Positions 7,006-38,920 of a stretch of 38,923 nucleotides of DNA are shown here, one piece after another. Below the pieces are notes generated by a model that was not told where the DNA came from, made no database searches, and saw nothing but the letters and a program-made list of their open reading frames with translations. The first letter of the stretch is position 1. The number at the start of each line of letters is the position of its first letter. The position numbers were made by a program, and so were the translations under genes. Source of the DNA: Eubacteriales bacterium (GTDB lineage: Bacteria; Bacillota; Clostridia; Lachnospirales; Lachnospiraceae); the NCBI GenBank assembly GCA_030524585.1, contig JAUNGJ010000015.1, forward strand, positions 12,108 to 51,030, read 5' to 3'.

Positions 7006-7302
7006 ATGAAAGTGGATAAAGAGTTTGTTTTGAGGGAAATTGCCGGAGATTATATTATTATTCCGACAGGTAAAACAGTACTGGAATTTAATGGGCTGAT
7101 TACTGTAAATGAAGTGGGGGTATCCCTGTGGAATATGCTTCAGAATGAGACTACACTGGAGGAACTTGTACAGGGAATACTGGATGAGTATGATGTAGAG
7201 GAAGAGGTTGCAAGAGAGGATATACAGGAATTTTTGGATACGCTTGTATCTGGTGGAATTCTAGCAAAGGATATACAGAATGCAGATGAAGAATCAATAT
7301 GA
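7006..7302 (+). CDS. PqqD-family peptide-recognition protein (cassette 1)
   Basis: A 98-residue acidic protein matching the PqqD fold (winged-helix RiPP recognition element). Features are EFVLREIAGDYIIIPTG, a beta hairpin around FNGLITVNEVG, then helices ending in an EEEVAREDIQEFLDTL segment. PqqD proteins bind the leader of a precursor peptide and present it to a radical SAM enzyme. Its 3' end overlaps the regulator gene by 23 bases. The paralogue at 34314 is clearly related (FVLREIAG versus FILREIAG). Its peptide client is probably precursor 1 or a shared leader, as inferred from context. Confidence 0.88.
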   Translation: MKVDKEFVLREIAGDYIIIPTGKTVLEFNGLITVNEVGVSLWNMLQNETTLEELVQGILDEYDVEEEVAREDIQEFLDTLVSGGILAKDIQNADEESI

Positions 7303-9739
7303 GCCTTTAACGCAGGGTCAGCAGTATATAGATAAGACAGAAGCATTGGAGAAGGGAATCGAAGTATTCCCTTCTATTTATATTGAAGGAGCGGCAGCAT
7401 TGGGGAAGACAACGGCGGTAAGAATGCTGCTTGCAAAGCATCCGGAAGTGGCGCCTGCCGTTTTCTGGATGGATGAAGAGATGGAGAATCCGTCAGGATT
7501 TGTGAAGAGTCTTCGGGAATTGAAAAACAAAATTGCGGGAGAGCAATTGTTGGAAATAAAAAGTTGGGTGATTTTTGAAAATATAAACAGGAAAATCACC
7601 GGGGAAATGATAACAGAGATTATAAAATTTCTGCAAAAAATGCCTGCCGGTAATAGGGCGATATTAATTGGCAGAGAAAGACCTGCAGAAGAATTTTTGG
7701 AATTGTACTGGAAGAGGATGATGGAATTTATTTCCATAGAAACATTTTTGTTTTCTCGCGAAGAAGTGTTCTGTATGGCGGAGAGAGCAAAAAGCAGGAT
7801 TGATCCGGGGAAAATATATGCAGAGACCGGAGGCTGGGCAGGATGTGTAGACATTATGCTCCGCATGTCTGCAAGGAATACGGAATGGACAGAACAGGAG
7901 CTGCGCAGCAGCTATGAGATGAATACATATATTTACAATACGATACTGGGTGTATTATCGGAAGAGGAACAGGAGCTGATGGAACGGGCGGCGTTCTGTC
8001 CGTGGATTAACGAAGAGCTTTGCAGAGAAGTATGGGATTTGCCGGATTCTGTGGATGTATTGGAGAGACTTGTAAGAAAAGGAATGCTAGTTCATGACAG
8101 AAACAAAAATAGGTGGAAAATTGTCCCTCTTTTCCGGGCAAATTATCAAAAAGATGGGAAAATACATGGATTACGGCAGACGAAAAAATTTGGGGAGCTT
8201 TTAAGCGAGTGGTATGAAAGGCATGGTTATATTAAGGAAGCACTGGGATGTCTGAAGGAATCTGGCGCTGAAGAAAAGTATCGCCGATGTATGGTAAAGT
8301 ATTATGATAAAGTGCCATTTTTAGGCATTTCTTATAAGGAGGCTGTCGGATGGCGGGACTCTTCTCCGCAAATGATTTATCTGCGGGGAATGTATGCGTA
8401 TTTTCACCAGAATCGTGAGCGGTTTCGGAAGGAAATCAGGCGATTGGAAAAGGCAGAAGGAAAGGACAGATGCAGCAGAGAGGTTTATCTGAATCTGATG
8501 TATATAAATCCAGAGAAGTCGTTGGATAACTGGCTTACTTTATTGGAAGAGATGTCGAAGGACGGAGAATCTTTCCGACTATATGGAATGCTGGGTGGAT
8601 CGGTTACTTTTTTATGCGGATTCAGAGATCTTTCCGGCCTATTTGCCTGTACACGAAAAGAGGAAAATCATAGAGCACGTATTTGGAAAGAATGTCTGGG
8701 CGAAAAGGAATGGATGGCATATCAACTGGCCAGGATAGACTATTATATGGAGACGGATCGTCTCAAATCATTGAAAGAAGAGGATAAGAAATTAATAGAT
8801 CGTTTCATGGGAGAATTTAATGCACAGAATCTGGCATATGGGCAGCTTTCCTGGCAGATTCGACTGGCAGGTTTACATTTATTATGTAAAAGACAGGCAA
8901 TGGAATCTGAATTGGAGCTGAATGAGAATATCGGGCAATTAGAGCAGATGCTGTGCAAGGAAGAGAATGTGATCTGTGTGAGAAATGCGGAGGCAGTTAG
9001 CAGCATGTATGCATCATGGCGTAAAGAGTCGGAGAAGCTGACACGCTGGCTGCGCCGCGCAGAGCAGGAGCGGAATATAGAGGTGGAAGAAGGTAATTAC
9101 TATTATCTCTGCTGTCAGGCAAAAGGATATTTGCTGCTCGGTCAGTATGAAAAGGCCGAGAAAATATTGCGGGGAATAATCCCTTATCTTCGAAATAACA
9201 GACGTTACCGGTATTTGGCAGAGATTCTGTTCGAGCAGGCGCTGATTAACTGGGAAGCAGGAAGACATAGTCAGGCACTGCAGAGCATCATAGAATCCTT
9301 CCTGGTCAATGGAGATTCCAGATATGTGGCGATATATACAAGCTATGGCAAGCGGGGGAAGAATGTATTAGATGCGTATATAGAATGGCAGCGCGCGAAT
9401 GCCCCGGAAGGTTGGCATAGAAAGAAAAAATATAATTACGGCAATGTGCTTCGGATGCCAATGGAAGATTATTTGGAAGTGATCCTGCGCTGTATTAGGC
9501 GTGAGTCCAGAAATAATCAGATATTTCTTGAGGAAATGCCGGAAGAGCGGCTGACTATGATGGAGACTATTATTCTTCAGGATATCGGGAGAGGACTTAC
9601 CAATGCGGAGATATGTGCGGAGCTGAACCTGAAGCTCCCGACGGTAAAAAGCCATATCTATAGTCTGTATAAGAAGCTGGGTGTGAACAGCAGGGTACAG
9701 GCAATAATTAAAGGGAAGGAAAAAGGGATCCTGGATTAG
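7280..9739 (+). CDS. MalT-like ATP-dependent LuxR-family transcriptional regulator
   Basis: An 819-residue STAND-type regulator. The N-terminal NTPase has a Walker A motif around 37-45 (EGAAALGKTT) and a DEEM segment after it. A long alpha-helical TPR-like region spans about 330-700. A C-terminal LuxR helix-turn-helix lies around 755-815 (IGRGLTNAEICAELNL, then TVKSHIYSLYKKLGV). Such proteins sense a ligand and activate transcription as oligomers. It overlaps the PqqD gene, so it is very likely the regulator of the peptide system. In-frame starts at 7280 and 7286 are both possible. A terminator follows at 9775. Its ligand is unknown; carbohydrate or peptide are both plausible. Confidence 0.9.
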   Translation: MQMKNQYEPLTQGQQYIDKTEALEKGIEVFPSIYIEGAAALGKTTAVRMLLAKHPEVAPAVFWMDEEMENPSGFVKSLRELKNKIAGEQLLEIKSWVIFENINRKITGEMITEIIKFLQKMPAGNRAILIGRERPAEEFLELYWKRMMEFISIETFLFSREEVFCMAERAKSRIDPGKIYAETGGWAGCVDIMLRMSARNTEWTEQELRSSYEMNTYIYNTILGVLSEEEQELMERAAFCPWINEELCREVWDLPDSVDVLERLVRKGMLVHDRNKNRWKIVPLFRANYQKDGKIHGLRQTKKFGELLSEWYERHGYIKEALGCLKESGAEEKYRRCMVKYYDKVPFLGISYKEAVGWRDSSPQMIYLRGMYAYFHQNRERFRKEIRRLEKAEGKDRCSREVYLNLMYINPEKSLDNWLTLLEEMSKDGESFRLYGMLGGSVTFLCGFRDLSGLFACTRKEENHRARIWKECLGEKEWMAYQLARIDYYMETDRLKSLKEEDKKLIDRFMGEFNAQNLAYGQLSWQIRLAGLHLLCKRQAMESELELNENIGQLEQMLCKEENVICVRNAEAVSSMYASWRKESEKLTRWLRRAEQERNIEVEEGNYYYLCCQAKGYLLLGQYEKAEKILRGIIPYLRNNRRYRYLAEILFEQALINWEAGRHSQALQSIIESFLVNGDSRYVAIYTSYGKRGKNVLDAYIEWQRANAPEGWHRKKKYNYGNVLRMPMEDYLEVILRCIRRESRNNQIFLEEMPEERLTMMETIILQDIGRGLTNAEICAELNLKLPTVKSHIYSLYKKLGVNSRVQAIIKGKEKGILD

Positions 9740-9741
9740 GT

Positions 9742-9875
9742 AAATTGCCATTTATGAACTTGAATATGTGAGGTGAAAAAAGCTCTGAACGGGCCGGAAA
9801 TGGCGTGTTTTAGGGCTTTTTTGTGTGCAGAGAAATTGGGAGTGGGTGGATGAAAAGAAAAGTAAATCGGAATTT
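9742..9875 (+). repeat. 134-bp direct repeat, left copy
   Basis: Identical over 134 bases to 29194-29327, and alignable a few bases further with a single-T indel. It contains a terminator hairpin and begins just after the end of a gene in both places. No transposase or inverted ends are seen in it. The stretch 9740-9918 holds only this repeat and the start region of the next gene. Confidence 0.95.
9775..9822 (+). terminator. Terminator after the LuxR regulator (inside the direct repeat)
   Basis: gaaaaaagctct pairs with agggctttttt (one G-T wobble) around a GC-containing loop and ends in six Ts. It separates the pqqD-regulator transcript from the genes starting at 9919. Confidence 0.6.
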
Positions 9876-9918
9876 ACCGTTAATATAACAGGTCAAAGAT
9901 GGAAAAGAGGGGAAGGTA

Positions 9919-10686
9919 TTGGCTGCAAGAAGAAAATACAAGAGAAGAGGACGAAGAAAGAAGCAAAAAAGGAGCATTAAATGGCTTTGGGGATTATTGG
10001 CTGTCATTATTATAATGCTGATCGTTGTAATTGGATGGAATATATATAAAAAAAGTACAGAAAATCAGATGACAGAAGAAAAGCAGGAAGCAGAAGACAT
10101 GTCAGAAGATAAAGGGTTTGATTTCCCATATGATTTGGAAGATGGAAAATTGGAAGTAAATTCTTTGTTTCAGTTTACTGGAACAAATCCGGACTACGGG
10201 GATGAAGAAGGCGAAGATATTGCGTCCCTTGAGGTGATCAACAAATCTGACCAGCATTTGGCGTCTGCAGAAATCAAGGTGAGTCTCGGAGCTGGGACAG
10301 AGTTAACCTTCGAGATCACAGATGTTCCGGCAGGACAATCCGTGATGGTGTTTGAAAAAAATAATACGAGTTATGACACTTCTGATAAGTGTATCGCTGT
10401 AGAAGATACAGCGGAGTTTGAAGAGACAACTGCACTGATGGAGGACAAGCTTATCGTGGATGTGCAGGAAACGACAGTTACTTTGACGAATACAACAGGT
10501 GAAGACCTGATAAATCTGCTTCTCCACTGCCATTGTCTTGTGGATGATACATACTTTGGCGGTTTAGTATACAGTTACCCGATAGAAATGATTCCGGCAG
10601 GTCAGAGTGTTACTGTCCAGGCGGATGAATGTTATATGGGAACAGCATCAGTTGTCCGAGTAAGCCAGGACAATGGAGAGGAATAG
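9919..10686 (+). CDS. Single-pass membrane protein with Ig-like (FxLYD-like) extracellular domain
   Basis: A 255-residue protein. It has a strongly basic N-terminus (residues 1-21), a transmembrane helix (about 22-41), an acidic linker and then a beta-rich extracellular part. Two similar halves can be seen, each ending in a PAGQSV motif (VPAGQSVMV and IPAGQSVTV), suggesting two tandem Ig-like/FxLYD-type domains. Start is TTG at 9919 with a ggggaagg RBS. It is the first gene after the terminator and runs in the direction of precursor 1, so it is probably co-transcribed with it. I do not recognise a specific function; a surface receptor or assembly factor for the cassette product is a guess. 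Confidence 0.75.
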   Translation: MAARRKYKRRGRRKKQKRSIKWLWGLLAVIIIMLIVVIGWNIYKKSTENQMTEEKQEAEDMSEDKGFDFPYDLEDGKLEVNSLFQFTGTNPDYGDEEGEDIASLEVINKSDQHLASAEIKVSLGAGTELTFEITDVPAGQSVMVFEKNNTSYDTSDKCIAVEDTAEFEETTALMEDKLIVDVQETTVTLTNTTGEDLINLLLHCHCLVDDTYFGGLVYSYPIEMIPAGQSVTVQADECYMGTASVVRVSQDNGEE

Positions 10687-10727: not shown

Positions 10728-10976
10728 ATGAAGGTTTACGAAAAACCGAGGGTTTCATTTGAAAGGTTTGAACTGTCTCAGCATGTGGCTGACTGCGGCT
10801 GGGAATTACAATCAAACGATGTGAATAACTGTTATGCAACCGGCGATCCAGAATGGTGCTATCCGACTGATGTAAAGGCATTTACGCCAGGGGTTACTGT
10901 ATCGGGCTGTGATGTAGAACCGGAAGGCTACTGCTATACAGTAGGTTCCGGCGGTATCGGTTTGTTTAAATCCTGA
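10728..10976 (+). CDS. Putative modified-peptide precursor 1
   Basis: An 82-residue protein with strong RBS (gggagg). The leader-like N-terminus shows Tyr4, Pro7, Glu12, Val20-Ala21 and Cys23, with the same spacing as in the two other putative precursors in this window. The rest contains Cys35, Cys44, Cys61 and Cys69, several Tyr/Trp, and ends GIGLFKS with a C-terminal serine. There is no hydrophobic signal peptide. It sits 2 bases before the HPr-kinase-like gene and is followed by a radical SAM/SPASM gene. That is the layout expected of a RiPP substrate. The family has no function I know; the precursor role is inferred from size, position and pattern. Confidence 0.7.
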   Translation: MKVYEKPRVSFERFELSQHVADCGWELQSNDVNNCYATGDPEWCYPTDVKAFTPGVTVSGCDVEPEGYCYTVGSGGIGLFKS

Positions 10977-10978
10977 TT

Positions 10979-11851
10979 ATGGAGAGTAAACATATTAAAA
11001 TATCTTTTTCTGGCATCACTTTTAATATAGATTATGCATGCCCGGTAGTGGTTACAAAGCACTTTATTCCATTTCTGGAAGGCGATACGGAGATACAGTA
11101 TAATGTAGAATTCCGGGAGATAGAGACGCTTCCTGTTATAGAGGGAGATGTATTAGCGCATAAGCTGGAATATCAGGTGTTCCGAACGCCGGAAGGAATT
11201 GTCCGGCAGTTTCATGATCCGGTCAATGGTGACAGGCCGTATGCGGTTACGACCTGTGATTGGCCCAATAGAAGAATTCTTGTTCAGTACATAAGAGGTG
11301 CAGAGGAATTTATCTGTGAGACAGGAAATAGTTTCTTCCATGTAGGGTGGGAGAAGGTCTTGTTAAGAGAAGCGAGAATGATTCTCCATGCAGCCTGCGT
11401 GGACACTGCTTACGGCGGAATCCTATTCTCGGGCCCATCGGGAGCAGGAAAATCGACACAGGCGGATTTGTGGTGTCAATATGCTGACGCGGTGCTGGTG
11501 AATGGAGACCGCCCGGTTCTTGGAAAGAAAAAGGACGGGTGGCGGGCTTACGGCTCACCTTACGCGGGATCTTCAAGGTGTCATAAGAACATAGATTGCG
11601 GAATTCAGGCGGTAGTTGAGGTAAAGAAATCTCAATATTGCCGGATACGGAAGCTAAGCGTAAAAGAAGCATTTCGGAAAATATATGCAGAGGCTACGGT
11701 AAATAGCTGGGACGCGGAGTTCGTGTCAGAGATCAGTAATCTGATCATGGAATTCGTATCAGAGATTTCAGTTTATGAAATGGAATGTACGCCGGATATT
11801 CAGGCAGTAGAATTGCTGAAGAAAATATTATCAGGGGAGGATGGGATTTGA
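10979..11851 (+). CDS. HPr-kinase-like (PadeK-type) peptide kinase, cassette 1
   Basis: A 290-residue protein with a C-terminal HprK-like ATPase core: P-loop GPSGAGKST at 152-160, conserved LHAACV before it, NGDRPV at 175-180 and a GSPYAGSS segment. It is only distantly like true HPr kinase/phosphorylase: the N-terminal half is unrelated. It resembles the truncated kinases found in lasso-peptide clusters, which phosphorylate the C-terminal serine of the peptide. The start lies 2 bases after the precursor stop, so translation is coupled. Its 3' end overlaps the radical SAM gene by 4 bases. Substrate assignment to precursor 1 is inferred. Confidence 0.82.
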   Translation: MESKHIKISFSGITFNIDYACPVVVTKHFIPFLEGDTEIQYNVEFREIETLPVIEGDVLAHKLEYQVFRTPEGIVRQFHDPVNGDRPYAVTTCDWPNRRILVQYIRGAEEFICETGNSFFHVGWEKVLLREARMILHAACVDTAYGGILFSGPSGAGKSTQADLWCQYADAVLVNGDRPVLGKKKDGWRAYGSPYAGSSRCHKNIDCGIQAVVEVKKSQYCRIRKLSVKEAFRKIYAEATVNSWDAEFVSEISNLIMEFVSEISVYEMECTPDIQAVELLKKILSGEDGI

Positions 11852-13023
11852 AAGACGTAGACAGAAATATAGAACCTCAGCTTACAAAGATTTTATTTTC
11901 AAAAGCAAGCGGAGCCAGAATACCTCTTAGCGGGACGTTTGAATTGTCTCCGGTGTGTAATTTTTCGTGCAGGATGTGTTATGTTCGAAAAAGCATGAAA
12001 GAGGTACAGGAACATAACAGAAAAATGTTGACAAAGGATCAGTGGATCGAGATTGCAAAGCAGGCCCGGAAAGAAGGGATGTTATATCTGCTGCTGACTG
12101 GTGGAGAGCCATTTCTGTGGCCGGATTTCTGGGAATTGTACGAAGCGCTGAACCGGATGGGATTTGTAATTACAATTAACACAAACGGTTCGCTGATTGA
12201 CGAGACTGCGGTTCGAAGATTAACAGAAATGCCGCCAACGAGGATCAACATTACGCTCTATGGAGCGAGTGATGAGACTTATGAGTCAATGTGCCAGGTG
12301 AAAGGCGTCTTTTCGAAGGTGGATGAGGCGATTCACAGGTTGAGAAGCGCAGGAATCGTTGTAAAACTGAATGGTTCACTGACGCCGCAGAATGTGGGAG
12401 ACTTGAAAGCCTGCGCGGAATATGCTGAACAGCATAATCTGATCTATGAGACGAATACGTATATGTTCCCGCCGCTTCGACGGGATTCGGGTTCTATAGG
12501 AGTAAATCAGCGTTTTACTCCGGAGGAAGCTGCAAGGTACAATGCAGAAAGCTATCGGCTGCTATACGGAGACAAGTTCTACTGGAAACGGATGGAAGCG
12601 ATTGTAAAGGGCGCGATTCCACCGCCGGGATTGGATGAAGGATGTATTGACCCTTTGGACGGAAAAGTAAGGTGCCGGGCGGGAAAAGCCTCGTTCTGGA
12701 TCACTTGGGACGGATGGATGACTCCGTGCGGGATGATGCCTGAACCGAAAATTGATATAACAAAAGGAACCTTTCGGGAGAATTGGGAATCCCTGACAAA
12801 AGTCAGCGGAGAACTAAAGGTTTCGGGCGTATGCGAGAAATGCCCAAACCAAAAACTGTGCCATTCCTGTGCTGCGATGGCGTTGACAGAGACAGGAAGT
12901 ACAGAAAAAATACCAACTTATTTGTGTGAGATGGTAAAAGAAATGAAAAAATATGCTGTCAGAGAACTGTCAGCAAAAAATATAATATCTAAAGGAGGTA
13001 AAACAGAAAATGAAAACGCTTAA
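11848..13023 (+). CDS. Radical SAM/SPASM peptide-modifying enzyme, cassette 1
   Basis: A 391-residue enzyme. The radical SAM cluster motif CX3CX2C is at Cys37/Cys41/Cys44 (VCNFSCRMCYVR), followed by the LLLTGGEPF and NTNGSLID motifs. A C-terminal SPASM domain has Cys residues in VRCRAGKA, TPCGMM, CEKCP and LCHSCAAM, enough for auxiliary iron-sulfur clusters. Such enzymes install thioether, C-C or epimer modifications on peptides. I chose TTG at 11848 (TTGA overlap with the kinase stop) because a ggggagg RBS lies 7 bases upstream; the longer frame from 11785 lies within the kinase gene. The 3' end overlaps the GH20-like gene by 14 bases. Confidence 0.9.
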   Translation: MKDVDRNIEPQLTKILFSKASGARIPLSGTFELSPVCNFSCRMCYVRKSMKEVQEHNRKMLTKDQWIEIAKQARKEGMLYLLLTGGEPFLWPDFWELYEALNRMGFVITINTNGSLIDETAVRRLTEMPPTRINITLYGASDETYESMCQVKGVFSKVDEAIHRLRSAGIVVKLNGSLTPQNVGDLKACAEYAEQHNLIYETNTYMFPPLRRDSGSIGVNQRFTPEEAARYNAESYRLLYGDKFYWKRMEAIVKGAIPPPGLDEGCIDPLDGKVRCRAGKASFWITWDGWMTPCGMMPEPKIDITKGTFRENWESLTKVSGELKVSGVCEKCPNQKLCHSCAAMALTETGSTEKIPTYLCEMVKEMKKYAVRELSAKNIISKGGKTENENA

Positions 13024-16000
13024 AAAAGCGCTATCGCTTTTACTTGTGTTATGCATGGTATTGGGAATGACTTCTTTCATACCATCAACAGAAGTCGAAG
13101 CGGCAGAGGACGATGGCTTTTATAAAATCGTTCATCTGGATTGCGGACGAAAGTATTTCACCGTAGGATGGGTGAAAAGTCTGATTGATGAGATGGAAAA
13201 AGACGGCTATACCCATCTGGAACTGGCATTTGGTAATGATGGGCTTCGATTCCTGCTGGATGATATGTCCGTTACTGTTGATGGTACCACTTATAGCAGT
13301 GATGATGTAAAAGTTGGTATTCAGGCCGGAAATAAGGCATATTATGATGCTGGTACAAACAATGAATGGTCTGAAGCCGAGATGGGTGAGATCATTACAT
13401 ACGCAAATGCGAATGGAATTGAAATTATTCCATTACTGAATACACCAGGGCATATGGATGCGATTATCGATGCAATGGAATCTGTTAGTATTTTAAATCC
13501 GGCATTCACAGCGGGGAATTATGGAACATCAGCACGTACAGTTGATTTGGAAAATGATGCAGCTGTTGCATTTACGCAGGCATTAGTTCAAAAATATATC
13601 AAATATTTTGCCGGCAAGGGATGTAGCCTTTTTAATCTCGGTACTGATGAGTATGCGAATGATATTCTAATCAATTATTCAGGTATGGGATTTGGCTATC
13701 TTCAGGGACAGGACCAATATGGAAACTTTGTTAACTATGTAAATACTCTGGCTGCTGCGGTTACGAACGCTGGAATGACACCAATGGCATTTAACGATGG
13801 TATTTATTATGGCAGTGATACATCTTCTGGTATATTTAATAAGGATATCATGATCACCTACTGGTCAAACGGCTGGGGAAATTATAAACCTGCATCTGCG
13901 GATTTTTTAGCTAATCAGGGACATAATCTTATTAATACGCATGGTGACTTCTATTATGTATTAGGCAAGAGTGATAACTTTGATAATGGATCTATTTATG
14001 CAAGTAATTGGAACAATAAGGCCTTCCCTGGAACTACTTTTACGGAAGAACAGGCGGGCGCTATGTTCTGTATCTGGTGCGATTATCCGAATGCTGAAAC
14101 GGAAGATCAAATTACTGGAAAAGTGATTAATACCGGAGTATTATCCGCTATGAGCACAGCTATGGGATATAATGATGATACCGACGACGGTTCAGACTCT
14201 GGCGATGAAAATACCGGAGATGAAGTTAAAGTAACTAACAATGAAACGATAACTGTCACAGTTGGAGAGAAAGCTACTGCAACAATTGATAATGCTAATT
14301 ATGCAGGCACTTATACAACAGATGATTCTTCCATTGCAACTGTATCAGTTACTGGCGAAGATGCCATTGAAGCGACAGTAAAATATGAGAGTGCTTCACC
14401 AAGATGTAGTAATTTGATTAGCAACAATAGTACTTCTTGGAAGGAAACAAGATATTATTATCAGGCAAGTGATGGAAATTATTATCCGGTGTATGTAAAG
14501 CGTAGCAGTAGTTGGAGTTGGGGAACGACGACTTATACTTACACTTGGGGGTACTCTGCAACAGATTCTGTTGATAATGTGACTCAGATAAGGACTCAAT
14601 CTGTAACCAATACGAATACACCCGTCAATATTACTGTTTATACAAAGTCCGGTACAGAGGCAGTTCCAGCATCTACAACTGTTACATTTACCGGCGTAGC
14701 AGTTGGTACGACTTATGTGACAGTAGGAAATACGAAATATACGATCAATGTAATTGCAGAAGATTTAAGTAAGGTTACTCCTTTAACCGTTGAATACTGG
14801 ATTACAAACCGTCAGGTAACCGCAAATGGAGCAACCAGCGGAACAATTGCAGCAACTGCTTCAGGTGTGTACAGTGAGTCAGGCGCATTATTTAGCAGCT
14901 TAGTTCCGGAAACAGGTACTCAGGATAGCAACACAATGGTGTTCTGGAAAGGAACCTGTTTGGATAGTAGTCATAAGCAGACAGCAACATCTGGCGTCGA
15001 TATGACGACGTCTGGTAGTGACTTCACATATATTCGTTATTGGAATGGATCATGGGCATATTCCGCAGATCGTGAGACATGGACTATTGTGGAGAACGAC
15101 GATCAGATTGTAGCCTACTATCTTCAGAAGACAGAAGTTACAGATGAAGTAACAACAGAAGTTGTAGATTGGGGTGTAGTTCCGTCCACAAGTTATAATA
15201 GTACTAATTATGTTCTGATTGATTTTGCAGTAAAGTATGAATCGGGTGAGCGCACTCCGGATTCTTTCCCTGTTAGTAACAAGACAATGGCATTCCATTG
15301 CGATCCAAATGATTCTACAACCGTTCATCAATATAACAATGGAAACCGTTATAGCTGGTCTGATAATTACCGTGATATCGGTATGATTAAAGCAGAAGAA
15401 ACGGACGAGTATGAAGTATATATGATTACGGTAACACCGACAAGTGATAGTCAAACAACACAGGTTGCTGGTAATGCAAATAGTGCTACTAGTTATACAT
15501 ATGATGGTACGGAAAAGGTAGTATGGGTAGATGACGAGGCAAATCTCGGTGATTTCGCTGATGAAAGCTCACATTATACAAGTATATCTGGAGATATTAA
15601 TTATTCTGTAGGCGGGGAAGCAATTGTCCCAGGCCTGGAGATATTTAACCGCCATGGTATGCTGGTAACATATTATGTACGGGCGAAAGTAACAGAGGAT
15701 TCGTTGGCAGTTCATTACATTGATAAGGCTGCAAATCAGGAATTCTATAATTACAATATTGCAGTACGAAAGGGCACGACATTTGATGCAAGTATTGCCC
15801 TTGCTGATTCATGGAAGGGCGATCTGAAAAACGGAAACGTTACGAATTTACAAGATAAAACACAGACAGTTTCTGCAGACTTGTCTACCATGCCTGCTAT
15901 CGGTGCGCAGTATCGATATAGTGATTATACTTGTGTGGAGGTAGTACGTAGTGAAAATGGTAAGAATGTATATCTGTACTACACATTTAATAATGCACAT

Positions 16001-20845: not shown

Positions 20846-20931
20846 ATATTTACTATTTACAAGGATGCACAATTGTGGGTGAAATATACCGACAATCTAT
20901 TTTTGTCTGGTGAAAAAATGAGGAAATGTTA

Positions 20932-25068: not shown

Positions 25069-25326
25069 ATGAAAAAAGTATATGTTGCTCCAACTGTGGA
25101 GATAGAACTATACGAATTAAATGCCAGCATAGCCAGCAACTGTGCAGTAGTGGTTTCAAATGGACCTGCTGTTGGAAATCATGAACAGTGTGACGATTAT
25201 GAAGATCCGTTTGCTATGAGTACATACAGCATGCAAAGAAGTGGTCCTTATAATGTTCAGTTTTATGAGGATACGAATTGTGATTGCTATTATTCTTCCA
25301 GCGATTATGGTTACTGGACGTCATAA
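25069..25326 (+). CDS. Putative modified-peptide precursor 2
   Basis: An 85-residue protein. The leader pattern has Tyr5, Pro8, Glu13, Ile21-Ala22 and Cys25 with the spacing seen in precursors 1 and 3. The remainder is rich in Tyr, Asp, Ser and Asn, with Cys41 and a Cys71-x-Cys73 pair, and ends DYGYWTS, again a C-terminal serine. There is no export signal. It is placed 3 bases after the giant fibro-slime gene and ahead of kinase and radical SAM genes. The substrate role is inferred. Confidence 0.7.
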   Translation: MKKVYVAPTVEIELYELNASIASNCAVVVSNGPAVGNHEQCDDYEDPFAMSTYSMQRSGPYNVQFYEDTNCDCYYSSSDYGYWTS

Positions 25327-27548: not shown

Positions 27549-27578
27549 TGAAATACTTTAAGATGGGAGGTGCTTCTT

Positions 27579-29596: not shown

Positions 29597-30475
29597 TTGA
29601 GAAGAAGAACGCATATCAATGTAAAAAGAGCAGTTCTGATTACAATTTTTTTAATTGTGTTTATTCTGGCGGCTGAGGTGTGGTTATCTTACCACTGGCT
29701 GAAGGTGAATTTTTATGAGACTTCTTCTGATAGAATAAGCGATCCGGTGCGGCTGGTAGTCCTGTCAGATCTTCATGATCATGAGTTCCTGGGGGCAAAT
29801 AAGCGGCTTGCAGACAAGGTGTCCGCACAGGAGCCTGATCTTATTCTGCTGGATGGAGACTTCCTGAATGAGGATTCAAGGGATGCACATGTGCCATTAG
29901 AGCTGGTATCACAGCTGAAGGAGATCGCGCCAGTGTACTATGCGCTCGGTAACCATGAGCTGTCTTATATAGAAGCGGGACACGAGGATCTCTGTGATGA
30001 ACTGGAGAGGGCAGGAGCAGTAGTATTGGAAGAGGGCTACAGAGATGTGGAAGTTGGGGATACAAGGCTGCGTCTGGGAGGAATGTATGATTATGCATTT
30101 GCCCTGGATGGAAATAATTCGGCCGAGAATCTGACGGGAGCTGTAAGAGAGTTTTTGGAGGAATTTCAGGATACGTCGAATTATAAGATTATGTTATCCC
30201 ACCGGCCGGACAGCTTTGTGTTCGGCAGCGCTTCAGAATACTGGGATATTGATTTTGTAATCAGTGGACATGACCATGGGGGTCAGGTTGTGGTTCCCTT
30301 CAGGGGAGGCTTATATGGAGGAGATCAGGGGTGGTTTCCTAAGTATATTCACGGTATGTATGAGCTTGGAAATATGAAACTGTTTGTAACCAGTGGCCTG
30401 GGAAGCGAGCATCAGGCGCTGCCCAGATGGAACAACCCGCCGGAGATAGCAGTGGTTGATCTGTGTCCGCAATAA
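29597..30475 (+). CDS. Membrane-anchored metallophosphoesterase
   Basis: A 292-residue protein with a basic N-terminus and one transmembrane helix (about 11-31), then a calcineurin-type phosphoesterase domain facing outside. Metal-binding motifs are visible: LSDLH (Asp58, His60), DGDF (Asp88), GNHE (119-121) and SGHDHGGQ near 225. It resembles YkuE-type phosphodiesterases. Start is TTG with gaggag 8 bases upstream. It heads an operon with an Ig-like protein and the Wzz/kinase pair. Substrate unknown; a link to removal of phosphate from a modified peptide or glycan is speculative. Confidence 0.88.
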   Translation: MRRRTHINVKRAVLITIFLIVFILAAEVWLSYHWLKVNFYETSSDRISDPVRLVVLSDLHDHEFLGANKRLADKVSAQEPDLILLDGDFLNEDSRDAHVPLELVSQLKEIAPVYYALGNHELSYIEAGHEDLCDELERAGAVVLEEGYRDVEVGDTRLRLGGMYDYAFALDGNNSAENLTGAVREFLEEFQDTSNYKIMLSHRPDSFVFGSASEYWDIDFVISGHDHGGQVVVPFRGGLYGGDQGWFPKYIHGMYELGNMKLFVTSGLGSEHQALPRWNNPPEIAVVDLCPQ

Positions 30476-30496
30476 GATAGAGTAGAGGTATATTTG

Positions 30497-31300
30497 ATGA
30501 GGAAATTGAAAATATTCAGTGTACTGCTGCTGTTAGTATCAGCAGGTGCTTTTATAGCATTTCAGGCATATATGAAAGTGGTGCAGGATGATACTCCGCC
30601 GGTTGTTATCTGTGACAGTAAAGAGCTTACCGTTACGGTAGCGGCAACAGACGAGGAGCTGCTGGAAGGAGTCAGCGCTAAGGACCGGCGTTCCGGAGAT
30701 GTGACAGATACCCTGGTGATTGAAAGTCTTTCTGCATTTACAGAAGATGGCACAAGGATTATAACCTATGCTGCGGTAGATGAGAGCATGAATGTGGGAA
30801 GATGTGAGAGAACACTGATTTATGAAGATTATGAGCCGCCAGTTTTCCATATGAGCGAACCTCTTTGTTATATGGTTGGGTCTGATGTGGATATACTTTC
30901 CGCTATATCGGCGGACAGTACGCTGGACGGTTCGCTTACTTCAAATATTAAATATTCGTTAGAGAAGACGGTGAATACCATGACGGCAGGAAACTATCCT
31001 ATAGAATTTCGGGTTATGGACAGTGGCGGGAAGACGGTCTATCTGGATACGCAGATTGAGATTTATGATCGTACATATGCAGGGATTGAGGTAAATCTGA
31101 CGGATTACCTGGTCTATGTGAAGCAGGGGCAGGAATTTGACCCACAGAACTATTATGCCGGAGCGGACAGAGAAGGAGAGCTTACTATTCAATCTAACGT
31201 AAATACGAGCGAAGCAGGAACCTATTATGTGGATTATATTGTAAATGGAATCTCTGTCAGTGGTAAGAGCCGTCTGGTAGTTGTGGTTCAGGAAGGATAG
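30497..31300 (+). CDS. Membrane-anchored protein with bacterial Ig-like (DUF5011/HYR-type) repeats
   Basis: 267 residues from the ATG at 30497 (an adjacent TTG at 30494 is possible). One N-terminal hydrophobic helix (about 6-22) is followed by three beta-sandwich units marked by the patterns DDTPPVVIC, DYEPPVFHM and TYAGIEVNLTDYLVYV. Each resembles DUF5011-like surface domains (conserved RSGDVT and DGSLTSN turns). It lies 21 bases after the phosphoesterase and 5 before the kinase fusion. It is probably a structural surface protein; a specific role cannot be read from it. Confidence 0.75.
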   Translation: MRKLKIFSVLLLLVSAGAFIAFQAYMKVVQDDTPPVVICDSKELTVTVAATDEELLEGVSAKDRRSGDVTDTLVIESLSAFTEDGTRIITYAAVDESMNVGRCERTLIYEDYEPPVFHMSEPLCYMVGSDVDILSAISADSTLDGSLTSNIKYSLEKTVNTMTAGNYPIEFRVMDSGGKTVYLDTQIEIYDRTYAGIEVNLTDYLVYVKQGQEFDPQNYYAGADREGELTIQSNVNTSEAGTYYVDYIVNGISVSGKSRLVVVVQEG

Positions 31301-34203: not shown

Positions 34204-34237
34204 TATAAGCAAGGTTTATGAGACGGTTTGGCAGGAC

Positions 34238-34266
34238 TTGCGTCTGTTTCCAAGACGTAGTAAAAT
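34238..34266 (+). promoter_or_regulatory. Recurring promoter-like element, copy 3
   Basis: TTGCGT (34238-34243), 17-nt spacer, TAAAAT (34261-34266). The core acgtagtaaaattgaa is shared with copy 1. Within this copy cgtct and agacg form a small inverted repeat, a possible operator. It precedes the second PqqD gene by about 48 bases. Confidence 0.55.
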
Positions 34267-34313
34267 TGAAGTGGAATAAAGCTGTATATAATGAAGAAAA
34301 GGCGGAAAGAGGA

Positions 34314-34601
34314 ATGAGGATTGCAAAAGAATTTATATTAAGAGAGATCGCCGGGGAGTGTATACTTGTTCCTACAGGGGCAACGACACAGGAATTTAAC
34401 GGTATGCTTACAATGAGTGAGACCGCCAGGTTTATCTGGGAGAATCTGGAGAAAGCTGATAGTTTGGAAGAGATGATACAGATGATTCTGGATGAATATG
34501 AGATTGATGAAGAGACCGCAAGGCGGGATGCAGTAGGATTCATCTCACAGCTCGTAGGAAATGGATTCGTGGAGTGTACAAAAGAGGACAGGACCTGGTA
34601 G
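34314..34601 (+). CDS. PqqD-family peptide-recognition protein (cassette 3)
   Basis: 95 residues from the ATG at 34314; the frame extends to 34218 but that part covers the promoter-like element. AKEFILREIAGE, then ILVPTGATTQEFNGMLTMSE and a helical end match the PqqD fold and its paralogue at 7006. It would bind the leader of the precursor peptides and bring them to the radical SAM enzyme. It leads a compact gene set: PqqD, kinase, nucleotidyltransferase, peptidase. Confidence 0.87.
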   Translation: MRIAKEFILREIAGECILVPTGATTQEFNGMLTMSETARFIWENLEKADSLEEMIQMILDEYEIDEETARRDAVGFISQLVGNGFVECTKEDRTW

Positions 34602-34625: not shown

Positions 34626-35489
34626 GTGAGAAAACAGTATCAATTTGGCCGTGTACAGATAGAATTACAGATGCCGGACGGGATGTCCATGCCAAAGAAT
34701 ATGGGAATGTTTGAATGTGAGGGCGCAGATGCGGATATGCTCTTCCAATTAGAATATACGTCAGATCTTATGGCGGTTGAGCGGCAATTTCGCAGGGAGC
34801 ATGTGAAGATTCAGGAGATCCGCAGAGAGAATATGCGAATCCTTATAGCGGGAAATAGAGAGTGCAGGATTCTCAGTTTTCATGGAAATGCCGCACCGTA
34901 CGCTGTCAGTGTGGAAGAGAATGAGAAGAAGAATCATGTGTGGGTTGCAGAAGAAGTGGCGTCTTTGTTAAGTCACGATACGATATTTGTCTCGCTGCTG
35001 TCATTGGAAAAGCTGATGATTAAAAACAATGCATTAATTCTGCATTCTGCATATATGTGCAGAGAAGATAGAGCGGTACTGTTTTCTGCTCCGTCGGAGA
35101 CAGGAAAATCGACGCAGGCAGACTTGTGGGAGAAGTATAGACAGACCAGGACTATTAATGGTGATCGTTCACTGCTGATTCGGGAACCGGATGGGTGGTA
35201 TGCATATGGATGGCCGGTGTGTGGAAGTTCTGAAATCTGTCATAATGAGACCTATCCCATACATGCAATTGTGATGCTTCATCAGGCAGAAGATAATGAA
35301 GTGATTCGGTTGAATGGATTTTCAATAATTCAAAGGCTCATGGCACAGATTACGATTAATATGTGGAATGCAGAGTTTCAGACAAGGGCACTGGATCTTA
35401 TTGAGCAGATTGCCCTGGAGATTCCTGTCTATGAGCTTGGATGTAATATTTCAGAGGAGGCAGTGCAATGCCTGGAGAGAGTACTGTGA
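34626..35489 (+). CDS. HPr-kinase-like (PadeK-type) peptide kinase, cassette 3
   Basis: 287 residues from a GTG at 34626. P-loop SAPSETGKST at 154-163, preceded by ALILHSAYM; NGDRSLL at 178-184; YGWPVCGSS follows. The N-terminal half diverges from the other two kinases while the ATPase half keeps their motif order. It overlaps the nucleotidyltransferase gene by 22 bases. A likely client is precursor 3, encoded 3 kb away on the other strand. That pairing is inferred by elimination. Confidence 0.82.
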   Translation: MRKQYQFGRVQIELQMPDGMSMPKNMGMFECEGADADMLFQLEYTSDLMAVERQFRREHVKIQEIRRENMRILIAGNRECRILSFHGNAAPYAVSVEENEKKNHVWVAEEVASLLSHDTIFVSLLSLEKLMIKNNALILHSAYMCREDRAVLFSAPSETGKSTQADLWEKYRQTRTINGDRSLLIREPDGWYAYGWPVCGSSEICHNETYPIHAIVMLHQAEDNEVIRLNGFSIIQRLMAQITINMWNAEFQTRALDLIEQIALEIPVYELGCNISEEAVQCLERVL

Positions 35490-36730
35490 AAAATGAATTG
35501 ACGAAAACGCAGGAAGAGTTTTTGAAGATACTGGAAAGTTTTATGCATGATAAAGCATATCAGCTGCCGGAACAATTCACACAGATAAGAGAATTATATC
35601 ATTTGGCAGCAGAGCATAAAATGGTGGCGGCCGTTTATGAGCAGCTTCAGAGAGAAGAATTGCTTGGCAGAGAAGAATATAAAGATATAGCCAGGATCCT
35701 GAAGAATACTACGATCCGGGAAGTTGTCATGCAGGCACAGAGGGCAGACGGCTTTCTGCGTGTATATAAAAAAATTATTGATCGGGGAATTTGCCCATTG
35801 GTTGTTAAGGGAATGATCTGCAGGAATCTATATACAAAATCGGATTACCGTGTATCGGGCGATGAAGATATACTGCTGAAGAAAGAAGAATTTGCACTGT
35901 GTGATGAAATTCTTCTGGAAGAAGGTTTCCAGAGAGAAGAACTGGATATGGAGAATCTTCCATACGAGATACCGTATATGCATATACAGAATGGAGTTTA
36001 TATCGAACTGCATTTTTCGTTATTCCCGGAAGAATCGGGCGCGTATGGGCACCTGAATCAGGAATTTATCCATGCATTTGATACGTGTATAGCAGAAACA
36101 ATTCAGGGGGTAAGCGTATGGACACTAGAACCAACGCTGCATCTGTTTTACTTGATCTGCCATGGCCTGAAGCATTTCCTTCACAGTGGATTTGGAATCC
36201 GCCAGGTGTGCGATATGATGATGATGGCGGAGAATTATGGCGGACAGATTGATTGGAAGTACATTGAAGAACGGCTAAGAGCCCTTCGTATGGAGGAATT
36301 TTGGAACGGTCTGGTGGATATTGGCAGGAAATATCTGGGATTCTCCACAGAGAAAGCAAATTATCCAAAGCATATGCAGGAATATCAGACAGACTGCAGA
36401 AATCTTTTGAAAGATTTGCTGGACAGCGGTGTGTACGGTGACAGCAGTATGGAACGAAAACACAGTTCCAATGTTACTCTTGCGGCAGCGGAGAGTGGAA
36501 AAAAGGATGTGGCGGCCTCGCTAAAAGCATCTTTATTCCCGAATATGGATTACATGAAAAAAGGTTTCCCATGGCTGAAAAAATATCCGTGGCTGATACC
36601 GGCAGCGTGGATCATGCGAATTGTGCAGTATGCGAAATCACCTCAGAGAAAAAAAGGAGAAGAACCTGACAGCATGACGATTGGCATGAGCAGGGTAGAA
36701 TTACTAAGGGAGTATCACATTATTGATTGA
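35468..36730 (+). CDS. Nucleotidyltransferase-fold protein (NTP_transf_5 type)
   Basis: 420 residues. The core shows VVKGMICRN (Lys114-Gly115), then YRVSGDEDILL with Asp132 and Asp134 as the metal-binding DxD pair, and YIELHFSLFPE. This family occurs in lasso-peptide and capsule-like clusters, where it is thought to add a sugar or nucleotide group to a phosphorylated C-terminus. The C-terminal part is helical. Strong aggagg RBS lies inside the kinase gene. The position after the kinase agrees with acting on its product. Confidence 0.8.
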   Translation: MPGESTVKNELTKTQEEFLKILESFMHDKAYQLPEQFTQIRELYHLAAEHKMVAAVYEQLQREELLGREEYKDIARILKNTTIREVVMQAQRADGFLRVYKKIIDRGICPLVVKGMICRNLYTKSDYRVSGDEDILLKKEEFALCDEILLEEGFQREELDMENLPYEIPYMHIQNGVYIELHFSLFPEESGAYGHLNQEFIHAFDTCIAETIQGVSVWTLEPTLHLFYLICHGLKHFLHSGFGIRQVCDMMMMAENYGGQIDWKYIEERLRALRMEEFWNGLVDIGRKYLGFSTEKANYPKHMQEYQTDCRNLLKDLLDSGVYGDSSMERKHSSNVTLAAAESGKKDVAASLKASLFPNMDYMKKGFPWLKKYPWLIPAAWIMRIVQYAKSPQRKKGEEPDSMTIGMSRVELLREYHIID

Positions 36731-36751
36731 TATTGATAGACGGAGGTATGA

Positions 36752-37201
36752 ATGAAGGTTGTAGATACACGGGAATATGTATCCATGCTGAGAGAATTGG
36801 TGGAGGATGGCAAGGAAGTAAGTATGCTGATTTCCGGCAGCAGCATGGCGCCGTTTCTGATTCATGAAAGGGATTCCATATGTTTCAAAAAGCCGGACAG
36901 GGAGCTTAAGAAGGGTGACATGGTATTCTATCAGAGAGCAACCGGTCAATATGTTATGCACCGGATTTGTAAGATAAAGCCGGAAGGATATTATATGATA
37001 GGAGATGCACAGAAGGAGATCGAAGGTCCTCTTGAAAGAGGGCAGATATTTGCCTTAATTACAAAGGTCAGGCGCAAAGGAAAATGGATGGGACCGGGAG
37101 ATTTCTGGTGGGATTTTTTTGAGCATGTGTGGATTCGGATCATACCAATAAGAAGGTTTGTGGTAAAGGCTTACAGCATTATAAGCAGGAGCAGGAAATA
37201 G
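36752..37201 (+). CDS. S24/S26-type peptidase (signal-peptidase-like, Ser-His type)
   Basis: 149 residues. SGSSMAPFL holds the catalytic Ser31. KKGDMVFYQR and YVMHRICKI (His70) occupy the place where bacterial signal peptidases have Lys, and MIGDAQ (Asp85) follows. This Ser-His-Asp pattern resembles the archaeal/ER (S26B, SipW) kind. No clear transmembrane helix is present, although the C-terminus is hydrophobic/basic (WIRIIPIRRFVVKAY). A leader peptidase for the peptide products is the natural inference from its position after PqqD, kinase and nucleotidyltransferase. Confidence 0.8.
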   Translation: MKVVDTREYVSMLRELVEDGKEVSMLISGSSMAPFLIHERDSICFKKPDRELKKGDMVFYQRATGQYVMHRICKIKPEGYYMIGDAQKEIEGPLERGQIFALITKVRRKGKWMGPGDFWWDFFEHVWIRIIPIRRFVVKAYSIISRSRK

Positions 37202-37222
37202 TTAGTCCTGCTCCCATTTTTT
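37188..37222 (+). terminator. Terminator of the cassette 3 (+) operon
   Basis: ggagcagga pairs perfectly with tcctgctcc, loop of 9, followed by catttttt. The stem overlaps the peptidase stop codon. The converging radical SAM gene ends at 37229. Confidence 0.85.
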
Positions 37223-37228
37223 GCGGAG

Positions 37229-38347
37229 TTATTCCTTGATATTTGTGGATGCTTCTAAGCGCAGCAGGCGCAGGGATTCCTCCGTATACTGACACATGTA
37301 TTCAGGTAATGCATCATGGCTTCCTGCTTCCAGCAAGGCACAGGCCGCGCAGGTGCGGCATAGAGAACGCATCGAACAGGCGCTGCATTTGGAATTGAGC
37401 AGAATCTTGTCGGTCTCTTCTGTAATATATTTCCATGCGGCATCAAAGCCAATTTCAAATACGGATGCGGCTGGTTTGGTTAATATAACACAGGGACGCA
37501 TCTCCCCTTGCCAGTTAATTGTAAAGGAACATTTTCCAGCCAGGCAGGACATATGACCAGGAGCTTCTTCTGCCGGAGGCATGTTATCTATCTGGGAAAG
37601 AGTCTGCTGAATGTATTGCTCGAATAATTCAGGTCCCATTTCGGCCTTTAAGCACTGAATTCTTGCCTGCGCCGCACGGATTGGCTCCAGACGGGACTGC
37701 TGATTGTAAGGTTTGCTGCGCTCTCTTGTGGCAGGCATCATATAGGTGTCAATTCTAACGGGAATGCCTAATTCATCTCCAACGTTTATAAGCTTGAGAG
37801 CATCATGTTCATTGGCTTTCGTAAGACTTCCGCCGATTTTTACGTCTACATCATGCTGGCGCAAAAGTTCAATACCGCGGATCGTTTTCTTAAAACCATC
37901 AGGGTAGTGGCATAGATCCCGATAAGCATTATCATCAGAGCCGTAAAGGGTAATGTTGACACGCCTTGGCTTGTTCTGCCCCAGAAATTCCGCCAGATCT
38001 TCATCTATTAATGTACCGTTCGTGTTAATGGTCAGAATCATACCCAGTTCTTTCAGACCGAGATAGAGCCTGCGAAATTCAGGGTAAAGAAAAGGTTCCC
38101 CGCCGGTAAGCAGCAAAAACAAGACGCCGGCATCTTTCATCTGTCTGCCGATTTCCAGCCATTCGTCAGCAGTGCGAAGGCGGCCCTGCGCTTCCATTTC
38201 TTTGCGGCTAAGTCGGACATAGCACATATCACAGTTCATGTTGCATAGAGGAAGTAATTCTATGCTGCCGTTCATGGGAATTTTCTTTTGCCCGGCTTCT
38301 GCAAGAAGCATCCGTTCTATGGTTGTATTGTTCTCAGTAAGATCCAT
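37229..38347 (-). CDS. Radical SAM/SPASM peptide-modifying enzyme, cassette 3
   Basis: 372 residues from the ATG at 38347 (minus strand). The upstream GTG at 38365 is rejected because its codons contain the AGGAG RBS that fits 38347. Cluster motif Cys35/Cys39/Cys42 (LCNMNCDMCYVR), then LLLTGGEPF, INTNGTLID and a SPASM region with CLAGKCSF, RPCVIL, CSACSMRSLCRTC and YMCQY. Same family as the enzymes at 11848 and 26273. It lies downstream of precursor 3 on the same strand with a terminator between them. Confidence 0.9.
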   Translation of the reverse strand: MDLTENNTTIERMLLAEAGQKKIPMNGSIELLPLCNMNCDMCYVRLSRKEMEAQGRLRTADEWLEIGRQMKDAGVLFLLLTGGEPFLYPEFRRLYLGLKELGMILTINTNGTLIDEDLAEFLGQNKPRRVNITLYGSDDNAYRDLCHYPDGFKKTIRGIELLRQHDVDVKIGGSLTKANEHDALKLINVGDELGIPVRIDTYMMPATRERSKPYNQQSRLEPIRAAQARIQCLKAEMGPELFEQYIQQTLSQIDNMPPAEEAPGHMSCLAGKCSFTINWQGEMRPCVILTKPAASVFEIGFDAAWKYITEETDKILLNSKCSACSMRSLCRTCAACALLEAGSHDALPEYMCQYTEESLRLLRLEASTNIKE

Positions 38348-38460
38348 AATAAGCTCCTTTTTCACTCATTGCAGTGATTAAATGCTATGTATATTATAAA
38401 GAATAAGGGATGGGGATTCAAGGGGAATGTGAGGATACCGATATGCGCTAAAAAGAGAAC

Positions 38461-38505
38461 AAAAAAGTGCCGCATCATCAACAATTTTGTTGAATTTGCG
38501 ACACC
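38461..38505 (-). terminator. Terminator between precursor 3 and its radical SAM gene
   Basis: Read on the minus strand: gtgtcgca pairs with tgcggcac (one wobble), with an inner caac/gttg stem, followed by six Ts. It would make most transcripts stop after the precursor, giving excess substrate. The remaining bases of 38348-38536 are AT-rich with no gene. Confidence 0.75.
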
Positions 38506-38536
38506 ATTTCTTCATATGTTTATGCAGCTTTATATA

Positions 38537-38920
38537 TTATGATTTGGCGGTTTCCCATGTAGACATATCTAAATTAGTAGTGCAATGAACATCTGTACCG
38601 CCATCTGTCCAAATGATAACAGGAATGGCTTTGTAGCCCTGAGTTTTATCATTTCCGCCATTCGCAAAAAAGTACCCTTCTATGAAATCGTCATTCGATT
38701 CAGCCTCATGTGTTGTGCCACATGCATGATAGTAGTTCGTCACCATCCACGAATCTTCTGTTAGATTCCTTCCGTCTTTTGTAAACACGTCACCCCTAGT
38801 GCCACCACCTGCGTTACACTCAAACTTATAAACTGTGCCGCTGTCTCCGCAGGCTGCTACATACTCGTTTGGTAAAAATCTCTCCCCTACCATTCTTGGT
38901 GTTACATACTCTTTTTTCAT
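38537..38920 (-). CDS. Putative modified-peptide precursor 3
   Basis: A 127-residue protein. The N-terminus has Tyr5, Pro8, Glu13, the stretch NEYVAAC (Val21, Ala22, Cys24) and matches the leader pattern of precursors 1 and 2. Further cysteines are Cys35, Cys67 and Cys113. The body is rich in Gly, Asp, Asn and Thr, and ends WETAKS, a third C-terminal serine. No signal peptide. It is the longest of the three and may be folded rather than a short peptide. The RBS lies beyond the window edge. The gene is followed by its own terminator and then the radical SAM gene. Confidence 0.68.
   Translation of the reverse strand: MKKEYVTPRMVGERFLPNEYVAACGDSGTVYKFECNAGGGTRGDVFTKDGRNLTEDSWMVTNYYHACGTTHEAESNDDFIEGYFFANGGNDKTQGYKAIPVIIWTDGGTDVHCTTNLDMSTWETAKS

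Follow-up and report, generated by a model that had tools for sequence, protein, structure and literature searches.

Small peptides with a C-terminal serine beside paired HprK-like kinases and SPASM radical SAM enzymes point to an unnamed family of ribosomal peptides in Clostridia

The nearest published system to the locus described here is that of the linear polyphosphorylated peptides (LPP; Popov et al. 2026, PMC13381572). According to that report, a discrete recognition element (RRE) for ribosomally synthesized and post-translationally modified peptides (RiPPs) binds a YxxP leader, as discrete RREs also do in lasso systems, a signal peptidase I-like (SpI-like) peptidase, LppS, cleaves the leader, and phosphate is placed on Ser3 of the core (LppA). 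A second comparison is offered by lasso peptides: the kinases PadeK, ThcoK and SyanK are described in a review (PMC9266682) as enzymes that phosphorylate a conserved Ser at the C-terminus, a residue to which PsmN is said there to add hexoses. Here we examine a stretch of 38,923 nucleotides from a Lachnospiraceae genome (Eubacteriales bacterium; draft of 2.8 Mb, 92% complete), referred to below as the window, which extends to the right end of a contig of 51 kb (C78) and carries three sets of a small ORF, an HprK-like kinase gene and a SPASM radical SAM gene. A cassette of partly similar make-up, SynChlorMet, comprises ScmC, the PqqD-like ScmD and two radical SAM proteins, ScmE and ScmF, encoded side by side; we know of no precursor for it, and no paper naming it was found in the open-licence PMC literature.

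The three small ORFs (A1-A3), three HprK-like proteins (K1-K3) and three radical SAM enzymes (rSAM1-rSAM3) lie where a preliminary description of this DNA had placed them (Table 1), as do two Pfam PqqD proteins and a Pfam NTP_transf_5 nucleotidyltransferase; the S26-like peptidase of that description matches a signal-peptidase model of NCBIfam below cut-off. Contig C103 carries another complete set, in which A4, K4, rSAM4, a PqqD gene and an ABC exporter gene come in this order ahead of CpsB/CapC, surface Ig-like and Wzz genes, and this fourth copy together with recurrence in related genomes indicates that the gene set is more than a chance assembly. It is fairly likely, in our view, that several ribosomal peptides are produced from this locus by a shared logic, with the steps in the order that we infer. 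A PqqD-type RRE would bind the N-terminal YxxP leader of the precursor; the paired SPASM radical SAM enzyme would modify the Cys-containing core, probably by forming a Cys thioether or by crosslinking two carbons; the HprK-like partner kinase would phosphorylate the C-terminal Ser, perhaps repeatedly; the NTP_transf_5 protein may then put a sugar or a nucleotide on the Ser phosphate, as reported for PsmN; the signal-peptidase-like enzyme may take off the leader, as shown for LppS; and an MsbA-like pump, whose gene belongs to the fourth set, would export the product to the cell surface. There it may work with exopolysaccharide and, for one of the two precursor types, also with the giant secreted protein encoded next to it. 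The combination of radical chemistry and phosphorylation put forward in the preliminary description thus gains support from sequence comparison, and a conserved C-terminal Ser, which that description had not noticed, would give the kinase a specific target. What the sequences show is the conserved gene set, the leader motif, the Cys pattern, the C-terminal Ser and linkages to polysaccharide genes and to giant secreted proteins that share a module (see below); the chemical steps and the biological role are inferred from these.

Candidate precursors near related radical SAM genes were first selected as small ORFs that have a YxxP or WxxP motif close to the N-terminus and a Shine-Dalgarno-like sequence, and a leader pattern was then applied; the search made no use of the C-terminus. 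Ser is the last residue in 73 of the 78 leader-bearing small ORFs so obtained and the last but one in the other five (..FSST, ..SSSW, ..FSSN, ..FGSY, ..PFSA), which places it within the last two residues in 78/78. In the remaining genes of these loci that matched a profile, the last residue is Ser in 32/705 (32/669 when genes at locus ends are left aside). Ten small ORFs near a radical SAM gene that do not have the leader pattern had been removed before this count, and one of them ends in Ser; with or without the leader pattern, the candidates give 74/88. Three precursors stand outside the 78, namely A3, for which no Shine-Dalgarno sequence is readable at the contig end, and those of loci L047 and L061, which were picked out by eye; each of the three has Ser as its last residue. 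Leader-pattern candidates more than 4 kb from a radical SAM gene have the C-terminal Ser in 5/28, and some of them resemble further precursors. Since the C-terminal Ser is the residue targeted by paeninodin-type lasso kinases, phosphorylation at the C-terminus joined to radical modification of the core appears to be the best reading of these loci.

The alignment of 81 precursors (the 78 and the three just named) contains two types and nine sequences of mixed type. Type I (n=9, 127-138 aa, including A3) is marked by strong conservation of the core and by the tail W[ES]T[AT]KS. In type II (n=63, 71-99 aa, including A1 and A2) conservation is confined to the leader (consensus Y.KP....E.F.Lsq.IA..C), the Cys residues and the tail, which reads F-x-S in 46 of the 61 type II members of the 78. 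Exactly four Cys are present in 51/63 type II and 8/9 type I precursors, and A1 has five. The conserved Cys fit Cys-to-carbon thioethers of the sactipeptide or ranthipeptide kind, and they could also be joined in disulfides. Among distant sets from other families (L163-L176), several have precursors of 40-60 aa, often with the motif LRxEERxAGS, encoded between the radical SAM and kinase genes.

Pfam Radical_SAM is confirmed for 3/3 enzymes of the window, the Pfam SPASM model itself staying below cut-off. The three radical SAM Cys (CX3CX2C) are invariant in 20/20 aligned enzymes, as are seven more Cys in the SPASM region. Compared with solved structures, the radical SAM profile comes closest to SkfB (6efn) and to 5v1q (listed as Radical SAM), which we take to be SuiB; PqqE (6c8v) follows further down. 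No window protein exceeds the curated cut-off of a named NCBIfam radical SAM equivalog among the best 25 families per protein, the highest score being 98 bits against 500. The likely start of rSAM1 is the TTG at 11848 behind GGGGAGG, in a frame open from 11785.

The kinases, like the small ORFs, have no Pfam match over cut-off, and their NCBIfam matches are exclusively to HprK-related and ScmC models, all below cut-off. Profile alignment places His137, the P-loop and Asp177-Arg178 on their HprK counterparts, and 49 of 49 aligned kinases keep the His, the Lys of the P-loop and the second Asp. The form of the kinase goes with the end of the precursor: kinases with a [G/N]DR signature have a partner with C-terminal Ser in 72/79 cases and other forms in 3/21, in a comparison for which 25 rows were entered by hand and in which relatives are not independent. 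In one locus (L071, 674-2557) kinase and radical SAM matches fall within one 628-codon open frame, and this fusion argues for a single pathway.

Within the bacterial family, 150 genomes, one per genus, were surveyed with thresholds of E<=1e-45 for the radical SAM enzyme and E<=1e-15 for the kinase. The former was found in 23/150 and the latter in 39/150, and all 23 genomes with the radical SAM enzyme also have the kinase. For the analysis of neighborhoods, 40 loci from this survey were combined with 79 from the best 80 of at least 554 relatives, the window and the fourth-set locus L011, giving 121, and 118 after removal of three duplicates. The 79 come mostly from metagenome-assembled genomes titled Clostridia, Clostridiales, Lachnospiraceae or Oscillospiraceae, with a few Erysipelotrichaceae and Christensenellaceae; cultured sources are Hominisplanchenecus faecis, Faecalicatena contorta, Intestinibacter bartlettii, Anaeromassilibacillus senegalensis, Fusibacillus kribbianus and Mediterraneibacter catenae. 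Among 106 radical SAM genes (E<1e-90) in the 118 loci, 95 have a same-strand kinase gene at a distance of up to 1.5 kb, a proportion that is no estimate for SPASM enzymes at large because the 79 loci were chosen by likeness of this very enzyme; a PqqD gene lies within 4 kb in 66/106. A leader-bearing small ORF is near 75 of the 93 usable radical SAM-kinase pairs, and the linkage of small ORFs to the enzymes, on which the preliminary description had staked its reading, therefore holds up in homologous loci. The order is precursor-kinase-radical SAM in 67 pairs and precursor(s)-radical SAM-kinase in eight, and no precursor was recognised in 18. An artefact of a single family was rejected, as related sets occur in other families, in 11/391 genomes of the class and 5/398 of the phylum (E<=1e-80, own genome counted in both); outside the family they mostly have other precursor types (14 loci). 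Mobile-element cargo was likewise rejected, as a search of plasmids and phages with rSAM2 gave no match at E 1e-20; kinase matches in plasmids number two, both partial.

Several observations weigh against the proposed pathway. The best solved-structure matches of the kinase profile among PDB sequences are HPr kinases, at a weak E of 0.003-0.02. Lasso kinases are reported to require both Asp of the catalytic pair (D186/D187 in BsfK, PMC10368454; review PMC9266682), and the first of these is present in 0/49 of our kinases, being replaced by Gly (43) or Asn (6). With half of the pair missing, the HprK-like protein could be an ATPase, a chaperone or some other transferase acting on the C-terminal Ser; we consider this unlikely, given the full retention of the His, the Lys and the second Asp and the occurrence of the DD form in relatives beside similar radical SAM enzymes of other families (L163, L167-L169, L172, L174). 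The latter indicates that the first-Asp position varies within one functional setting, and the [G/N]DR form may be a signature of substrate specificity rather than a loss of activity. The Ser rule itself breaks down in a second related clade of radical SAM-kinase pairs (L062-L074): eight precursors picked there by eye, which sit between the radical SAM and kinase genes and of which seven have a GFTGxGW-like motif, show the YxxP leader in 0/8 and the C-terminal Ser in 0/8, and four more YxxP/WxxP candidates (L064, two in L066, L071) have no C-terminal Ser either. Therefore, the C-terminal Ser is not general to all radical SAM-kinase pairs. In 40 of the 106 cases no PqqD gene lies within 4 kb, many contigs being short. 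Distance matrices agree between radical SAM enzyme and kinase (r 0.80, n=93), radical SAM enzyme and precursor (0.73, n=75) and kinase and precursor (0.66, n=75), values reached in 0/2000 permutations, which partly reflects linkage and species history, so that the agreement does not separate function from linkage. No exporter was found within the window itself; the fourth set supplies one (L011, 10106-11908; Pfam ABC_membrane and ABC_tran). Finally, the literature yielded no mass-spectrometry or enzyme data on these cassettes.

Large secreted proteins are conspicuous neighbors. A same-strand ORF of at least 700 codons lies no more than 1.5 kb from 63/89 cassettes, against 27/128 control windows in which either strand was allowed; an LPXTG-like end was found in 0 of 71 giant-neighbor entries (70 distinct). 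The GH20 and fibro-slime giants of the window have in common an unnamed C-terminal module of about 430 residues (30% identity over 464 columns), and a profile built on this module, with one round of rebuilding from the hits it gave, matches 51/70 giant neighbors against 4/94 other large ORFs in the loci. In the source genome the module is confined to these two proteins. It occurs in 10 of the 150 genomes at E<=1e-5 and strongly (E<1e-20) in six, all of which are among the 11 with the close radical SAM clade (hypergeometric 3e-8, with the clade cut of E<=1e-94 set after viewing the list). Nine of the 11 strong-match proteins are encoded within 4.3 kb of a cassette kinase, the two exceptions being on other contigs of genome G007. 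Of the five close-clade genomes with no module match, G032, G118 and G025 have type I precursors and G135 and G103 have others, which indicates that type II cassettes and the module travel together.

These neighbors raise the question of whether the giant protein, rather than a small secreted peptide, is the substrate of the radical SAM enzyme, in the way that sulfatase-maturing enzymes act on a large protein. The excess of giants beside cassettes, the cassette-specific module of many of them and the match of the radical SAM profile to structures of anaerobic sulfatase-maturating enzymes would agree with this. It is nonetheless very unlikely in our judgment: the leader motif, the RRE and the peptidase genes speak for peptide maturation, and the five close-clade genomes have no match to the module, the feature examined there. 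In a more speculative extension of the proposed pathway, which we regard as rather doubtful, the peptide would be a coupling: its crosslinked Cys-rich body would dock on or crosslink to the module of the giant, and its phosphorylated, glycosylated C-terminal Ser would join exopolysaccharide. Each type II cassette would then be a dedicated RiPP-based means of attaching one giant protein that has no sortase motif to the sugar coat, a principle of surface anchoring distinct from sortase.

The layout of the window differs between the sets (Table 1). The first is contiguous on the plus strand, with 2 nt between A1 and K1 and an overlap of 4 nt between K1 and rSAM1; in the second, K2 and rSAM2 overlap by 1 nt (TAATG) and 80 nt separate A2 from K2. 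The strict order and these short junctions had been given correctly for both sets in the preliminary description, which passed over the 80-nt gap. The third set departs from the cassette order, with RRE2, K3, the NTP_transf_5 gene and the peptidase gene following two polysaccharide co-polymerase genes on the plus strand, and with A3 and rSAM3 running from the contig end on the minus strand, opposite to K3. Contig C78 stops 3 nt upstream of the A3 start, and contig C103 ends 95 nt upstream of a precursor start, as if repeats in the regions upstream of precursors had broken the assembly at both ends. The integrase gene possibly marks a block inserted between cassettes 1 and 2, and the pair of PqqD and MalT-type genes recurs in some related loci. 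In the signal-peptidase-like protein, Ser31, His70 and Asp85, chosen by eye, are candidate catalytic residues. A sortase-pilus operon (6-5033) with LPXTG proteins, a pilin backbone (PF16569) and two sortases lies just upstream.

Table 1. Features of the window, with positions counted from its first letter
Feature	Position	Strand	Evidence and remarks
PqqD-type RiPP recognition element 1 (RRE1)	7006..7302	+	Pfam PqqD 2e-17; NCBIfam lasso_PqqD_Bac 1e-9, below cut-off; overlaps regulator gene
MalT/LuxR-type regulator	7280..9739	+	Pfam GerE 3e-12
Conserved protein, N-terminal hydrophobic stretch	9919..10686	+	no Pfam match over cut-off; recurs beside many cassettes
Precursor A1 (type II)	10728..10976	+	YEKP leader, five Cys, C-terminal Ser (..GLFKS)
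HprK-like kinase K1	10979..11851	+	His137, Walker A Lys158, Asp177
SPASM radical SAM enzyme 1 (rSAM1)	11848..13023	+	TTG start; Pfam Radical_SAM 1.1e-26
Giant secreted GH20-domain protein	13010..17665	+	Pfam GH20 7.6e-23; cassette-associated module ~16004-17236
AAA-ATPase / PD-(D/E)XK-type protein	17877-19475		behind cassette 1 giant gene
Tyrosine recombinase (integrase)	19696-20718	-	Pfam Phage_integrase; between cassettes 1 and 2
ORF 5' of fibro-slime gene	20926..21405	+	no Pfam match
Giant secreted fibro-slime protein	21436..25065	+	NCBIfam Fibro_Slime 6e-15; cassette-associated module ~23560-24837
Precursor A2 (type II)	25069..25326	+	YVAP leader, four Cys, C-terminal Ser (..GYWTS)
HprK-like kinase K2	25407..26273	+	frame open from 25284; NCBIfam match below cut-off
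SPASM radical SAM enzyme 2 (rSAM2)	26273..27409	+	Pfam Radical_SAM 8.7e-23
AAA-ATPase / PD-(D/E)XK-type protein, similar to that at 17877-19475	27570-29174		behind cassette 2
Calcineurin-like phosphoesterase	29597..30475	+	Pfam Metallophos; recurrent neighbor in related loci
Surface Ig-like protein, polysaccharide locus	30494..31300	+	Pfam Bact_surface_Ig-like
Two Wzz/tyrosine-kinase-type polysaccharide co-polymerase genes	31306-32817, 32821-34203	+	Pfam Wzz, AAA_31
PqqD-type RiPP recognition element 2 (RRE2)	34218..34601	+	Pfam PqqD 1.4e-16; start at 34314 likelier
HprK-like kinase K3	34626..35489	+	NCBIfam ScmC 2e-8, below cut-off
NTP_transf_5 nucleotidyltransferase	35468..36730	+	Pfam 2.1e-42; family and context resemble those of LppN/PsmN
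Archaeal-type signal-peptidase-like protein, putative leader peptidase	36752..37201	+	NCBIfam TIGR02228 4.6e-6, below cut-off
SPASM radical SAM enzyme 3 (rSAM3)	37229..38365	-	Pfam Radical_SAM 1.1e-24
Precursor A3 (type I)	38537..38920	-	YVTP leader, conserved core, C-terminal ..WETAKS

If the proposed pathway is correct, the cassettes represent a widespread family of ribosomal peptides of gut Clostridia that is undescribed in the literature searched, radical SAM chemistry would be combined with (poly)phosphorylation at the C-terminus in peptides that have no lasso fold, and the kinase/nucleotidyltransferase pair would gain a defined target. RiPPs would also be tied to capsule loci and giant secreted proteins, which bears on the role of phosphorylated RiPPs near capsule genes, a question raised in the LPP report (PMC13381572).

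Lasso peptides of the paeninodin type (PadeK, ThcoK, PsmK/PsmN) resemble the present system in their HprK-like kinase, conserved C-terminal Ser, NTP transferase and RRE. As kinase, PqqD and nucleotidyltransferase genes are common in lasso clusters, the locus might be taken for a decayed lasso-peptide system. The preliminary description had seen neither a lasso cyclase nor a B-protein, and rightly so: the B2 protease family PF13471 has no match in the source genome at its 92% completeness, no cyclase gene is near the cassettes, and the single Asn_synthase match (PF00733) is partial (positions 12-125 of 354, E 1.2e-8, over cut-off) and lies on contig C26, away from them. In place of these proteins there is a radical SAM enzyme, the precursors are long and contain Cys, the catalytic Asp pair is incomplete, and the set recurs in many genomes. 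Decay from a lasso system is therefore disfavored and in our view scarcely credible.

Resemblance to LPP is closer. The HprK-like kinase, discrete RRE, archaeal-type SpI leader peptidase and NTP transferase of that system all have counterparts in the window, those of the peptidase and the kinase by matches below cut-off, and not every related locus has all four. The YxxP leader and the polysaccharide-locus setting are common to both systems; an MsbA-like exporter as in LPP is absent from the window and accompanies the fourth cassette and part of the related loci. SynChlorMet (SCM; NCBIfam TIGR04248-04251) likewise combines a PqqD protein, ScmC and SPASM radical SAM enzymes, and several of our kinases (K3, and five kinases in a further comparison) score best against ScmC, below cut-off. 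It could thus be argued that the locus is simply a member of the LPP family, or a SynChlorMet cassette, to which a tailoring radical SAM enzyme has been added, in which case phosphate would be placed near the N-terminus of the core, as at Ser3 of LppA, and the C-terminal Ser would be a coincidence of descent. We hold this to be improbable. The LPP leader consensus YxxPxVLxHQxIxFETxxS is not followed here beyond YxxP, which speaks against simple LPP membership, and the conserved residue here is the C-terminal Ser, kept in nearly all precursors despite divergent cores. Moreover, the radical SAM enzyme is a core gene here, with its fixed place in the order of 67/93 pairs, and has no mention in the main text of the LPP report. 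The best window scores against SynChlorMet models are 33.9 bits for ScmC (cut-off 125), 25.4 for ScmD (100), 85.7 for ScmE (400) and 80.8 for ScmF (400).

The SPASM maturases SkfB, 5v1q and PqqE are similar in their SPASM radical SAM profile and Cys-containing substrates and, in the case of PqqE, in the PqqD partner. We know of no SPASM maturase class in which an HprK-like kinase takes part or the precursors follow a C-terminal Ser rule, and in the open-licence PMC literature, mostly judged from listings, no report was recognised that brings together an HprK-like kinase and a radical SAM peptide maturase. The view of the preliminary description that no named class has this composition has to be qualified, since NCBIfam models exist for SynChlorMet and LPP differ from the set only by having no radical SAM enzyme. 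The main text of the LPP report describes no radical enzyme, the paeninodin-type systems have the Ser rule in common with ours and not the rest, and the SynChlorMet scores stay below cut-off; therefore, the most likely assignment from the sequences is to an unnamed RiPP family that would combine SPASM radical chemistry with C-terminal phosphorylation.

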